From Oscillospiraceae bacterium (lineage in GTDB: Bacteria > Bacillota > Clostridia > Monoglobales > Monoglobaceae): 64,000 nt of DNA. The notes beneath the pieces are model-generated. The model searched no databases, had not been told where the DNA came from, and worked only from the letters and a program-made list of their open reading frames with translations. The DNA lies in contig SVKF01000003.1 in assembly GCA_015068605.1 (NCBI GenBank), positions 62,001-126,000 on the forward strand. The letters run 5' to 3'. Below are positions 9,317-54,162 of the stretch, in pieces. The position numbers were made by a program, and so were the translations under genes. Every line of letters starts with the position of its first letter. The first letter of the stretch is position 1.

Positions 9317-9537
9317 ACCACATACTATAATTTTAATAATAGATTTTAGATATTTTTATGAATATCTATTTTTGCTATCCTTTTGGGGTATCATAAAACA
9401 AATTTGTGTTTGTTAAAAACGCAGGCTGTGATATGGTATTTGTTTTGTGATATTCATATTTGGTTATAGTGTGTGGTAACATTGAAATCGAGCCGCGTTT
9501 TTATGCGTGGCAAGACTTCTGTTGCCACGCATTTTTT
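9317..9537 (+). ncRNA. Structured RNA family copy R1 (closing helix, inner helix, pseudoknot, terminator)
   Basis: 9317-9330 pairs 9464-9477 (14 bp); 9390-9403 pairs 9438-9451 (14 bp); apical 9414-9426 pairs 9492-9503; terminator 9504-9537. Confidence 0.65.
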
Positions 9538-9611: not shown

Positions 9612-10112
9612 ATGAAAAAAATTATTACAACTATTTTGTTAGGAGTTTTATGTTTATCGTTGTGTGCATGTAACACAAAAAATATCGTCTCTAACACTAT
9701 GGAAGATGTAACCAACAAAACATTTTCATTGGGAGAAAAAGCAGAAATAGACGATGTTGAGGTGACCATGGTTGATGTTTATGAAAGCACAGGTGAGGCG
9801 TTTTCAAAGCCTGCAGACGGAAATGTATATGTGATTTGCGAATTCAATATCGAGAATAATTCAAGCAAAGATTTGACTGTATCGTCCATGCTTAGTTTTG
9901 AAGCATATTGCGATGATTCTTCCTGTAATTTAAGTATTTCGGCAATGGCATCAAATAGCGAAAAAAAGCAATTAGATGGAAAAATCGCTCCCGGGAAAAA
10001 GCTTTCCGGTATTATAGGCTATGAGGTTCCTGCTGATTGGAGTAATATGGAAATAAGATACACACCCGATCCTTTAAAAGATGACGAAGTTGTATTTGTA
10101 GCAACCAAATAA
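9612..10112 (+). CDS. Lipoprotein with DUF4352-like Ig-fold domain
   Basis: Lipobox LSLCAC; EIDDVEVTMVDVYES...YVICEFNIENNSSKDL pattern. Confidence 0.7.
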   Translation: MKKIITTILLGVLCLSLCACNTKNIVSNTMEDVTNKTFSLGEKAEIDDVEVTMVDVYESTGEAFSKPADGNVYVICEFNIENNSSKDLTVSSMLSFEAYCDDSSCNLSISAMASNSEKKQLDGKIAPGKKLSGIIGYEVPADWSNMEIRYTPDPLKDDEVVFVATK

Positions 10113-29120: not shown

Positions 29121-29149
29121 TTGATAAATCATAAGGTTTGTGTTATAAT
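29121..29149 (+). promoter_or_regulatory. Promoter of structured RNA copy R2
   Basis: TTGATA-17-TATAAT; the same 29-bp sequence precedes R3. Confidence 0.65.
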
Positions 29150-29154
29150 AGAAA

Positions 29155-29356
29155 ATGCCAAATGAATCAAATTTAATATATGAGGGTATTTGTAAGGGGA
29201 TAATTGTATCTTTTTTTAGGAATAACTACACCAAGGAATTTGATAAAAACGCAAATTCTAACGGTGTGGTTGTGATAAATATCCTCACGTTTGATTTGTT
29301 TGGCGACAATTGGAGTTTGCGTTTTTTATGCGTCGGCTTCGGTTGGCGCATTTTTT
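29155..29356 (+). ncRNA. Structured RNA family copy R2
   Basis: 29157-29171/29290-29304 (15 bp), 29182-29193/29275-29286 (12 bp), 29222-29232/29263-29273 (11 bp), pseudoknot 29245-29258/29313-29326, terminator 29328-29356. Confidence 0.7.
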
Positions 29357-29388
29357 AATTTTCGGGTGGGTATTTATTTTAAAAACTA

Positions 29389-29417
29389 TTGATAAATCAT
29401 AAGGTTTGTGTTATAAT
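29389..29417 (+). promoter_or_regulatory. Promoter of structured RNA copy R3
   Basis: TTGATA-17-TATAAT. Confidence 0.65.
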
Positions 29418-29422
29418 AGAAA

Positions 29423-29621
29423 ATGCCAAACGAAGTTAATAATATAAAGAGGAATATTTTGTAAGGAATATTTTTGTTATTTGAGTACAAATTTACAGTT
29501 AAAGAATTTGATAAAAATGCAAATTCCAAGGCTGTAGATTTGGATATTCCATTATTAGCTTTGTTTGGCGACAATCGGAGTTTGCGTTTTTTATGCGCTG
29601 ACTTTGGTTGGCGCATTTTTT
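29423..29621 (+). ncRNA. Structured RNA family copy R3 (tandem with R2)
   Basis: 29425-29443/29551-29569 (19 bp), 29451-29459/29542-29550, 29488-29498/29532-29542, pseudoknot 29513-29526/29578-29591, terminator 29593-29621. Confidence 0.7.
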
Positions 29622-29639
29622 ATTTTCGGGAGGATTTTG

Positions 29640-29936
29640 ATGAGGAAAATAGTTGCTTTTTTGATGTTAATTTTTTTATTGACGGGATGTTCACCAAAGG
29701 AAGCGGAAAAAACATCGGTAGAAGATTACTCTGATGTATGGGAAGCTGAAGAGGATGAAAGTGAAGAAGTTGAAGATGTTGAAGAAAACCAATATGTCGG
29801 GTCAATAAAATCCAATATATATCATATTCCTAATTGCAGCTGGGTTAAAAACATAAAAAAAGAGAATGAAATCCGGTTTGACTCCAAAGAGGAAGCAACA
29901 TCAAGAGGATACCGTGGATGTTATACCTGTATGTAA
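29640..29936 (+). CDS. Small lipoprotein with acidic linker and Ada-like zinc-binding Cys motif
   Basis: ATG at 29640 with GGGAGGA RBS; lipobox LLTGCS; YHIPNCSWVKNI...SRGYRGCYTCM. Confidence 0.75.
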   Translation: MRKIVAFLMLIFLLTGCSPKEAEKTSVEDYSDVWEAEEDESEEVEDVEENQYVGSIKSNIYHIPNCSWVKNIKKENEIRFDSKEEATSRGYRGCYTCM

Positions 29937-39029: not shown

Positions 39030-39037
39030 AATTTAAA

Positions 39038-39148
39038 ACTTCAGGGATTGGTGAAATTCCATACCGGTGGTAAAGCCCACGAGCCTTATTAAAGGTTGAT
39101 TTGGTGAAATTCCAAAGCCGACGGTATAGTCCGGATGAAAGAAGAAAG
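39038..39148 (+). promoter_or_regulatory. FMN riboswitch (RFN element)
   Basis: GGTGAAATTCCATACCGGTGGTAAAGCCCACGAGC...TTGGTGAAATTCCAAAGCCGACGGTATAGTCCGGATGAAAGAAG. Confidence 0.95.
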
Positions 39149-39159
39149 CAGATTTTCTG

Positions 39160-39747: not shown

Positions 39748-39776
39748 TTTACATTTTTGGGAAAATATGATATAAT
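39748..39776 (+). promoter_or_regulatory. Promoter of structured RNA copy R4
   Basis: TTTACA-17-TATAAT. Confidence 0.65.
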
Positions 39777-39782
39777 GACAAT

Positions 39783-39921
39783 GCGAAACAATTAAAAAAG
39801 CACACCGGTGTTTTTTGCTTTTAGGCAAAAACGCACGTTTATTTTCTATGCCTGTGTGCTGATAATAAAATTGTTTCGCAGCAAGTGCGTTTTTCGGGCG
39901 CAGCTTGTCTGCGCTTTTTTT
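39783..39921 (+). ncRNA. Structured RNA family copy R4 (compact form)
   Basis: GCGAAACAATT (39783-39793)/AATTGTTTCGC (39869-39879); AGCACAC (39799-39805)/GTGTGCT (39854-39860); pseudoknot AAAAACGCAC (39827-39836)/GTGCGTTTTT (39885-39894); terminator GCGCAG-cttgt-CTGCGC-T7. Confidence 0.65.
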
Positions 39922-39973
39922 AGTTAAACGCACTTAAACGCCAATCGTCGCGAAACAAAGCTGGCATAACAAA

Positions 39974-40004
39974 AAGACGGCTTTTGCCGTCTTTTTGTTA
40001 TGCA
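39974..40004 (-). terminator. murA terminator
   Basis: AAAAAGACGGCTTTTGCCGTCTTTTT. Confidence 0.8.
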
Positions 40005-41284
40005 ATAATTTGTTTTTCGTTTTTATCTTCCACAGTTCTTCTTGTAATCTGTGCTCCAAGTCCTTTAAGTTTTTGAACAAAGTTTTCATAACCACGGTCA
40101 ATATATTTAAGATTAAACACCTCGGTAACTCCGTCAGCCATCAGCCCTGCAATAACCATTGCGGCACCGGCTCTTAAATCCGTTGAAGAAACGGGTGAAC
40201 CTTTAAGCTTTTCAACACCCTCGATAACTGCAACTCTGCCGTCAACAGTAATCTGAGCCCCCATCAAGGTGAGCTGACTTATGTACTGAAATCTGTTGTC
40301 CCACACGTTTTCGGTGACAATACTTGTTCCGTTTGCAACAGACAAAAGGGCAACAATCTGAGGCTGGAGGTCTGTTGGATAGCCGGGATAGGGCATCGTG
40401 TTGACCTTGACCTTCTTAAGAGGCTTGTCTGCAATAATCCGCACACAATCATCGCCTTCAACAACCGTAACACCCATTTCGATAAGCTTTGCCGAAAGGG
40501 AATCAAGGTGTTTGGGAATAACATTGTTTATAACAACATCTCCGCCCGTTGCGGCGGCGGCAATCATAAATGTTCCTGCCTCAATCTGGTCAGGGATAAC
40601 GGAATATGAGCCTCCGTGAAGCTCGCTCACACCTTTAATTTTAATAACATCGGTTCCGGCACCCTTGATGTTTGCTCCCATAGAGTTAAGGAAGTTGGCA
40701 ACATCAACAATATGAGGCTCTTTCGCGGCATTTTCAATAATGGTCGTTCCCTCTGCCAAAGAAGCGGCAAGCATAGCGTTTATTGTTGCGCCAACGCTGA
40801 CCTGGTCCATATATATAGGACTGCCCACAAGGGATTCCGCCTGAATATCAACCAGTCCACGGTCAACAGAATGGGTTGCGCCAAGAGCGGTGAAGGCTTT
40901 AAGGTGGAGATTTATAGGACGAACGCCGAAATCACAGCCACCGGGCAGAGCAACCTTTGCGTGTTTAAATCTGCCAAGCAAAGCTCCCATAAGATATGAG
41001 GAAGCCCTGATTTTCCCGACCATTTCGTATGACGCTTCAAAGCAATCAAGATTAGTACAGTCAATAGTTATAACGCCTTTATCGGTAAATTCCGCCTTTC
41101 CGCCAAGCTTATTTATAATCTCGGCAAGAACATAGGTATCGGAAACTTCAGGAACATTGTCAATAACGCAAACGCCTTTAACCATAATTGCGGCAACGAT
41201 AAGAGCAACAGCGGAATTCTTTGCACCGCTGATATTAACCTCGCCACAAAGCTTTGCGCCCCCAAGTATTACAAATTTTTCCAT
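39998..41284 (-). CDS. murA: UDP-N-acetylglucosamine 1-carboxyvinyltransferase
   Basis: ISGAKNSAVALIVA; LPGGCDFGVRPINLHLKA; PYPGYPTDLQPQ. Confidence 0.97.
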   Translation of the reverse strand: MEKFVILGGAKLCGEVNISGAKNSAVALIVAAIMVKGVCVIDNVPEVSDTYVLAEIINKLGGKAEFTDKGVITIDCTNLDCFEASYEMVGKIRASSYLMGALLGRFKHAKVALPGGCDFGVRPINLHLKAFTALGATHSVDRGLVDIQAESLVGSPIYMDQVSVGATINAMLAASLAEGTTIIENAAKEPHIVDVANFLNSMGANIKGAGTDVIKIKGVSELHGGSYSVIPDQIEAGTFMIAAAATGGDVVINNVIPKHLDSLSAKLIEMGVTVVEGDDCVRIIADKPLKKVKVNTMPYPGYPTDLQPQIVALLSVANGTSIVTENVWDNRFQYISQLTLMGAQITVDGRVAVIEGVEKLKGSPVSSTDLRAGAAMVIAGLMADGVTEVFNLKYIDRGYENFVQKLKGLGAQITRRTVEDKNEKQIIA

Positions 41285-53672: not shown

Positions 53673-54044
53673 GTTGCCCAAATCTTATTTTATTTTGACA
53701 AGGTTTTAGTGGTGGAGTGGAAGTTAAACTTGAAAAAAGTAAAAAAATAATATTTCCCAAAAACAAACAAAGTTCATTTTTGGGAAATAGAAATCGGGTA
53801 ACTATGCTTATTGCGGAAATTATCAAAAAAATTTATTTTTTCTTAAAATTGACTTTTGGTTGAAATCTCAACCAAAACATTAAATTGAGTATATTTTCCC
53901 TGAAAAAAACTTTTTTTCTGGTTATTGACATACGTAAAAAAATCAATTATAATAGGTTATGTAATAAAGATTGCTTATGCAATCCGGCACAAATCTTATG
54001 GTAAAAATATAAGGTTGGTGGTCGAATGGTTAAAATTAAATAAA

Positions 54045-54132
54045 AACGGGAGCTTGTATTACAGGCTGAGAGGAAGGTGTGACCTTCGACCGAGAACCTG
54101 ATTTGGATAATGCCAACGTAGGGATGCCGAAA
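54045..54132 (+). promoter_or_regulatory. TPP riboswitch (THI-box)
   Basis: GGCTGAGAGGAAGGTGTGACCTTCGACCGAGAACCTGATTTGGATAATGCCAACGTAGGGA. Confidence 0.97.
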
Positions 54133-54162
54133 CATTTTGTTTTAGGAAAACTTAAGTTTACT

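Follow-up and report, generated by a model that had tools for sequence, protein, structure and literature searches.

Between ribU and murA, the window (the whole stretch of 64,000 nt that was analysed) carries a compact RNA unit, R4, in otherwise ordinary surroundings: an FMN riboswitch (39033–39150) and ribU lie upstream, and murA (39998–41284) converges on the unit, with a strong hairpin terminator on the murA side at 39967–40000. A TPP riboswitch is also present in the window (54036–54141). The TTTACA-17-TATAAT promoter, the P1 and P2 (inner) helices, the pseudoknot and the GC-rich terminator that the earlier note had described for R4 can all be read directly in the sequence, as follows (P3, the antiterminator and the tail are additional).

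39748–39776, + strand: promoter, TTTACA at 39748–39753, 17-nt spacer, TATAAT at 39771–39776; extended −10, TGATATAAT
39782–39921, + strand: R4 RNA, starting near +1 and running through the terminator T-run (covariance model match within the window, 121.1 bits, E 5.8e-19)
39782–39793 with 39869–39880, + strand: P1, 5′ and 3′ strands, 12 perfect pairs
39799–39805 with 39854–39860, + strand: P2, 5′ and 3′ strands
39812–39831, + strand: P3 hairpin, U-run at 39812–39819 with GGCAAAAA at 39824–39831
39827–39836 with 39885–39894, + strand: pseudoknot, 5′ strand AAAAACGCAC and 3′ strand GTGCGTTTTT, 10 perfect pairs
39877–39913, + strand: antiterminator, 39877–39892 with 39896–39913, which excludes the pseudoknot and the terminator alike
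39898–39921, + strand: intrinsic terminator GCGCAG-CUUGU-CUGCGC + U7, hairpin at 39898–39914 and T-run at 39915–39921
39924–39957, + strand: tail beyond the terminator, present in most of the eight R4-type copies described below

The fold of the R4 strand is better than that of 199 of 200 dinucleotide shuffles (z −2.64). Two covariance models (CMs), the first built from nine copies and the second from 50, contain the P1 and terminator pairs only. CM matches with E < 0.01 in the window number exactly four, R1–R4. The analysis supports the proposal that R4 is the fourth copy of a family of structured RNAs, which have a covarying pseudoknot and a promoter and terminator of their own. The other three members, and the gene behind the third, are:

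9373–9537, + strand: R1 (46.9 bits); the ATG of a lipoprotein-like gene is at 9612
29156–29356, + strand: R2, first of a tandem pair (71.7 bits)
29424–29621, + strand: R3, second of the tandem pair (65.3 bits)
29640–29936, + strand: lipoprotein gene (MRKIVAFLMLIFLLTGCSPK...) behind R3, starting 18 nt past the T-run

R2 and R3 (29130–29640) represent a tandem duplication of the whole unit including the promoter, and many genomes contain tandem pairs of this kind (e.g., L021, L044, and L070).

Extent of the RNA family

A BLAST search with R4 as query finds seven places in the genome, R4 among them. The genome-wide covariance search that the earlier note had proposed, in which an absence of further copies was to speak against the family, recovers 20 copies (E ≤ 1e-4) in this genome, which is an 83%-complete MAG; the other sequences analysed are also mostly MAGs. 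Within the bacterial family the CM matches 35 of 38 genomes, at up to 36 copies per genome, and it matches once in another family of the same order. At class scale, 95 of 392 Clostridia genomes (55 of 223 genera) carry matches; seven candidates per genome were scored in this search, so that copy numbers there are lower bounds. A draw of 399 genomes from the phylum, used as a chance control, gives zero CM matches at E ≤ 1e-6 besides those in the genome of R4 itself.

A search by pseudoknot pattern finds at least 119 loci in named genomes, and those among the matches listed are nearly all in MAGs of gut or rumen Clostridia/Oscillospiraceae or similar. Viral contigs, by comparison, give two loci, phages one partial match and plasmids none. 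A phage or plasmid element was considered and rejected, the family being near absent from those collections. In Rfam 15, searched at strict and loose thresholds with R1–R4 and consensus-like members, no family reaches its gathering score, and the sub-threshold matches are unrelated. The RNA family was not found described in the open-access literature; it may correspond to an unnamed entry among the thousands of unnamed human-microbiome candidates in PMC8040213.

Length varies throughout the family. The earlier note took a missing middle helix in R4 to define a "minimal core," but the extra helix is a feature of the long members R2 and R3; because members usually measure ~140–200 nt, R4 is a normal compact one. 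What sets R4 apart is the absence of a downstream gene and an altered antiterminator/terminator region.

Competing helices

The consensus promoter, from a landmark alignment, is TTGAnn-17-TGnTATAAT followed by 5 nt before P1, with the TG of the extended −10 present at 90% across the family. In 130 of the 177 copies with a recognisable −10, this element ends exactly 5 nt ahead of the start of the RNA model (spacer 17); because the −10 is locked to the model in this way, the RNA is predicted to begin at P1. The consensus RNA consists, in order, of UGCGACACAAnUU (P1), a variable P2, U-run–UUU–GGUAAAAAUGCAUGCUCU–U-run, P2′, P1′, (A)ACAAUCGGAGCUAUGCGUUUUUCG, and the terminator. The 16 nt preceding UUUUU, here termed X, have two possible partners: the apical strand on the upstream side, which gives the pseudoknot, and the 5′ arm and loop of the terminator on the downstream side, which gives an antiterminator hairpin with the loop UUUUUCG. 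Examples of the alternative pairing are GGCAGTG/CACTGCC in L043, CAACATGAGC/GCTTATGTTG in L123, and TTAAATCAAAGCGGCG/CGCGGCTGTGATTTAA in L074. The pseudoknot strand is near-invariant, whereas P1 and P2 change freely, which suggests that this strand may be read by a ligand or protein; such conservation, far beyond the needs of pairing, would suit a binding site and equally a trans-acting role.

Co-evolution of the helices was assessed by a swap test, in which the pairing energy of a strand with its own partner is compared with that for partners from other loci; the test cancels composition, although not all relatedness. Across 192 sequences, with energies as nearest-neighbour estimates that exclude pseudoknot loop costs, own partners pair better than swapped ones in P1 (−18.4 vs. 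−8.8 kcal/mol), the terminator (−16.1 vs. −11.2), the antiterminator (−13.9 vs. −11.1 kcal/mol) and the pseudoknot minus its U-run (−11.6 vs. −10.1). Controls on the same 192 sequences are flat (reversed strand −7.7 vs. −7.4; unrelated segments with no clear difference), which argues against relatedness as the cause. About two thirds of the sequences had been fetched by a pattern in which part of the pseudoknot is fixed, and the test was therefore also run separately on the other 68, which were selected by CM, giving z −10.8 for the pseudoknot, −8.9 for the antiterminator and −14.3 for the terminator. The P3 hairpin (U-run with GGYAAAAA) is weakly supported by the sequences (matched −4.4 vs. 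swapped −3.1); P3 and the pseudoknot would compete for the A-run of the AAAAA strand. A U·A-U triple helix that would join the apical-loop U-run to the AAAAA strand was considered and dropped, because the A-run sits on the strand antiparallel to this loop; it is simpler to suppose that P3 and the pseudoknot compete.

Changes on both sides of antiterminator pairs number 34 cells in the largest group of equal length, compared with a mean of 18 and a maximum of 30 in 300 shuffles; double changes in the two smaller equal-length groups are no higher than in their shuffles. Counts in fixed register include, for example, both G-C and A-U at one antiterminator position. In folding calculations, the median advantage of the antiterminator over the terminator is 2.1 kcal/mol when X is free, and the terminator forms when X is blocked. 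Terminator and antiterminator are thus mutually exclusive, as in an attenuator, and covariation backs this relationship; both the alternative helices and their co-evolution are established at the level of sequence.

Downstream genes and the gene-less subgroup

A gene start on the same strand, with a purine-rich ribosome-binding site (RBS), lies 8–45 nt past the T-run in 104 of 183 copies (57%), compared with 82 of 940 random points (8.7%); the distance is mostly 15–23 nt, with a mode at 18–20. A position 5′ of a gene at fixed spacing, as for a leader, is therefore a property of the family, but not of R4 itself. The ~40% of copies without a detected adjacent gene start include all eight R4-type copies; some of the gene-less copies resemble missed weak-RBS or GTG starts, and others are the first of a tandem pair. 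In the CM-selected set minus the R4 subgroup, 25 of 58 copies have an attached gene.

By a hydropathy rule made for this analysis, an N-terminal signal or transmembrane (TM) segment is called in 78% of downstream genes of ≥150 aa vs. 20% of other ORFs at the same loci (odds ratio 14, p 7e-17). Pfam assigns 21 of 91 downstream proteins to BspA-like leucine-rich repeats (LRR), with XRE-type HTH, SLH, EcoRI-type methylase, AMP-binding and many families found once each among the remainder. The themes are cell surface or secretion and small regulators, diverse and spread over more than one pathway, with no metabolic theme from which a ligand could be named. Clustering of the neighbouring proteins yields no common family; the downstream signal is one of spacing and secretion rather than of a single protein family.

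More than one family of small ORFs is found repeatedly downstream. One of ~50–60 aa, M(P/E)xYKxxYHxMFNxVTDVIExLQ, stands directly behind the RNA in several genera (L040, L042, L052, L107, L070, and L072), with a decayed remnant, MPYHP*, in L041; it has no confident Pfam or PHROG match. EcoRI-type adenine methyltransferase genes follow straight behind the leader in L122 and L175 (EcoRI_methylase, 2 of 91 downstream proteins), and small HTH regulators do so elsewhere. Some of the genes headed by the leader are defence-like cargo.

Eight copies in the genome, R4 included, form a subgroup with a gene behind none of them (0 of 8), with X lacking GGAGCUA and with short terminators; these are classed as a lineage-specific, gene-less subgroup. 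The tail that most of them share (39924–39957 in R4) repeats parts of the pseudoknot 3′ strand and of the P1 3′ strand in inverted orientation. In copy C25a the tail tracks a change in P1 (GTTTGG/CCAAAC), and read-through RNA of an R4-type copy would fold the tail into a long hairpin around the terminator. An initial view that antitermination had been lost in this subgroup through a weak X was revised: by using the end of P1, R4 forms an antiterminator of 16 bp (−19.1 kcal/mol by folding, vs. −8.2 for the terminator alone), and half of the eight copies have the antiterminator as their minimum-energy fold. In a genome of the same genus (G001), a plain hairpin and then another gene follow ribU, and R4 is absent; the position of R4 is therefore not conserved. 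Because murA converges and no gene lies behind R4, the unit would yield only a terminated short RNA, or is a relic; R4 is best seen as a gene-less copy of one or the other kind.

Possible function and alternative readings

R4 probably belongs to a class of Clostridia RNAs that attenuate transcription in a riboswitch-like manner, and the family appears to switch genes for secreted and surface proteins on or off via a pseudoknot that competes with the terminator. The antiterminator, the gene ~20 nt 3′ of the terminator (in most copies outside the R4 subgroup) and the distribution across the class Clostridia go beyond the earlier note. Under this proposal, the unit would comprise a sigma-A promoter with an extended −10, an RNA from +1 and a terminator, to which most copies outside the R4 subgroup would add an RBS and a gene ~20 nt on, and it is predicted to be expressed. 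P1 and P2 would hold up the apical strand GGYAAAAAYGCAYGCUC, which would pair at a distance with GGAGCUAUGCGUUUUU just past P1, giving the pseudoknot; the GGAGCUAUGCGUUUUU stretch would double as the 5′ arm of the antiterminator, with the 5′ arm and loop of the terminator as partner. With the pseudoknot formed, X would be held and the antiterminator blocked, so that the terminator would form and the gene would be off; with the pseudoknot open (e.g., when the A-strand is kept in P3), the antiterminator would form and the gene would be transcribed. We infer this direction of switching from which strands are shared. The balance would be set by a putative signal, whether a small molecule, a protein or other.

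Some of the same features would suit free-standing small RNAs that work in trans, either on other mRNAs or through protein binding, with the downstream genes incidental: each copy has a promoter and a terminator to itself, the transcript begins at P1, the family is multi-copy, the R4-type copies are gene-less and the pseudoknot strand is strongly conserved. We consider this unlikely for the family, since an antiterminator that co-evolves with the terminator loop would be needless in a stand-alone RNA, most copies with a gene keep the narrow gene-start spacing of 15–25 nt, and secreted proteins are enriched. LhrC of Listeria (PMC4132741) is likewise a small RNA in several copies, with a link to a surface adhesin; in contrast, the RNA described here abuts a gene and carries an antiterminator. 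Amplification rather than regulation might also account for the abundance, if the unit were a dispersed mobile or repeat (MITE-like) element with a promoter and terminator; up to 36 copies per genome, tandem duplicates, eight similar copies with a common tail and the lack of R4 behind ribU in a same-genus genome are consistent with such an element. It is nevertheless very improbable, given compensatory changes across several separate helices, fixed orientation and gene spacing, near absence from phages, plasmids and viral contigs, and an alignment of the R4-type copies that shows neither a target-site duplication nor a transposase.

The order promoter, structured RNA, terminator and gene matches that of the AbiF/RCd22 RNA-antitoxin leader (PMC12373285), which is also found in Clostridia and also involves read-through to the gene, and some of the downstream proteins are small and of unknown function. 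The family could on this basis be the RNA antitoxin of a type III-like toxin–antitoxin pair, but we give this scarcely any credence and rejected it on the diversity of the downstream genes: these are mutually unrelated, encode mostly signal-peptide, LRR, lipoprotein or HTH proteins, and share no common toxin. The 25 Pfam or NCBIfam families with the most matches include none of ToxN/AbiF type, and PADLOC matches are scattered. The fold differs from that of AbiF/RCd22, a CM search of family members with the abiF motif (RF03085) gives no match, and tandem antitoxin repeats inside a single transcript are absent.

The attenuator reading has parallels among riboswitches. In the preQ1 class, the 3′ strand of an H-type pseudoknot is also used by the antiterminator, and the terminator lies near the start codon. 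The present family resembles this arrangement in both respects, but differs in sequence, size and regulon, with a long P1/P2 stalk at +1 and with secreted-protein rather than queuosine genes; preQ1-type pseudoknot riboswitches that control a terminator are reviewed in PMC11625349. Among the candidate attenuators and riboswitches of Narunsky et al. (2024; PMC11109978), the trpB motif, for example, similarly has a covarying leader with an intrinsic terminator, and the right shoulder of its P1 carries an antiterminator strand; by cmscan, however, the present RNA is a separate family, and it occurs in tens of copies per genome ahead of unrelated genes.

With up to 36 copies per genome, a presence in about a quarter of the sampled Clostridia genomes and no entry in Rfam, the family would be one of the most abundant regulatory RNAs without an assignment in gut bacteria. 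Direct tests in vitro could draw on its consensus, on the three helices that compete and on the natural copies without a gene. The downstream genes direct attention to the cell surface (BspA-like adhesins, lipoproteins, and S-layer domains), and so the putative signal would be a handle on surface remodelling in uncultured gut and rumen Clostridia. Tentatively, and with less confidence than for attenuation itself, the family may constitute a new riboswitch class of gut Clostridia that responds to one common intracellular signal and controls dozens of secreted-protein genes per genome, and hence cell-surface make-up; gene-less copies, R4 among them, would then be decoys or trans-acting partners of that signal. 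A Gut-1 RNA (RF01706) lies ~250 nt upstream of one family member (L202, 1905–1976, − strand), a single case that may reflect chance.
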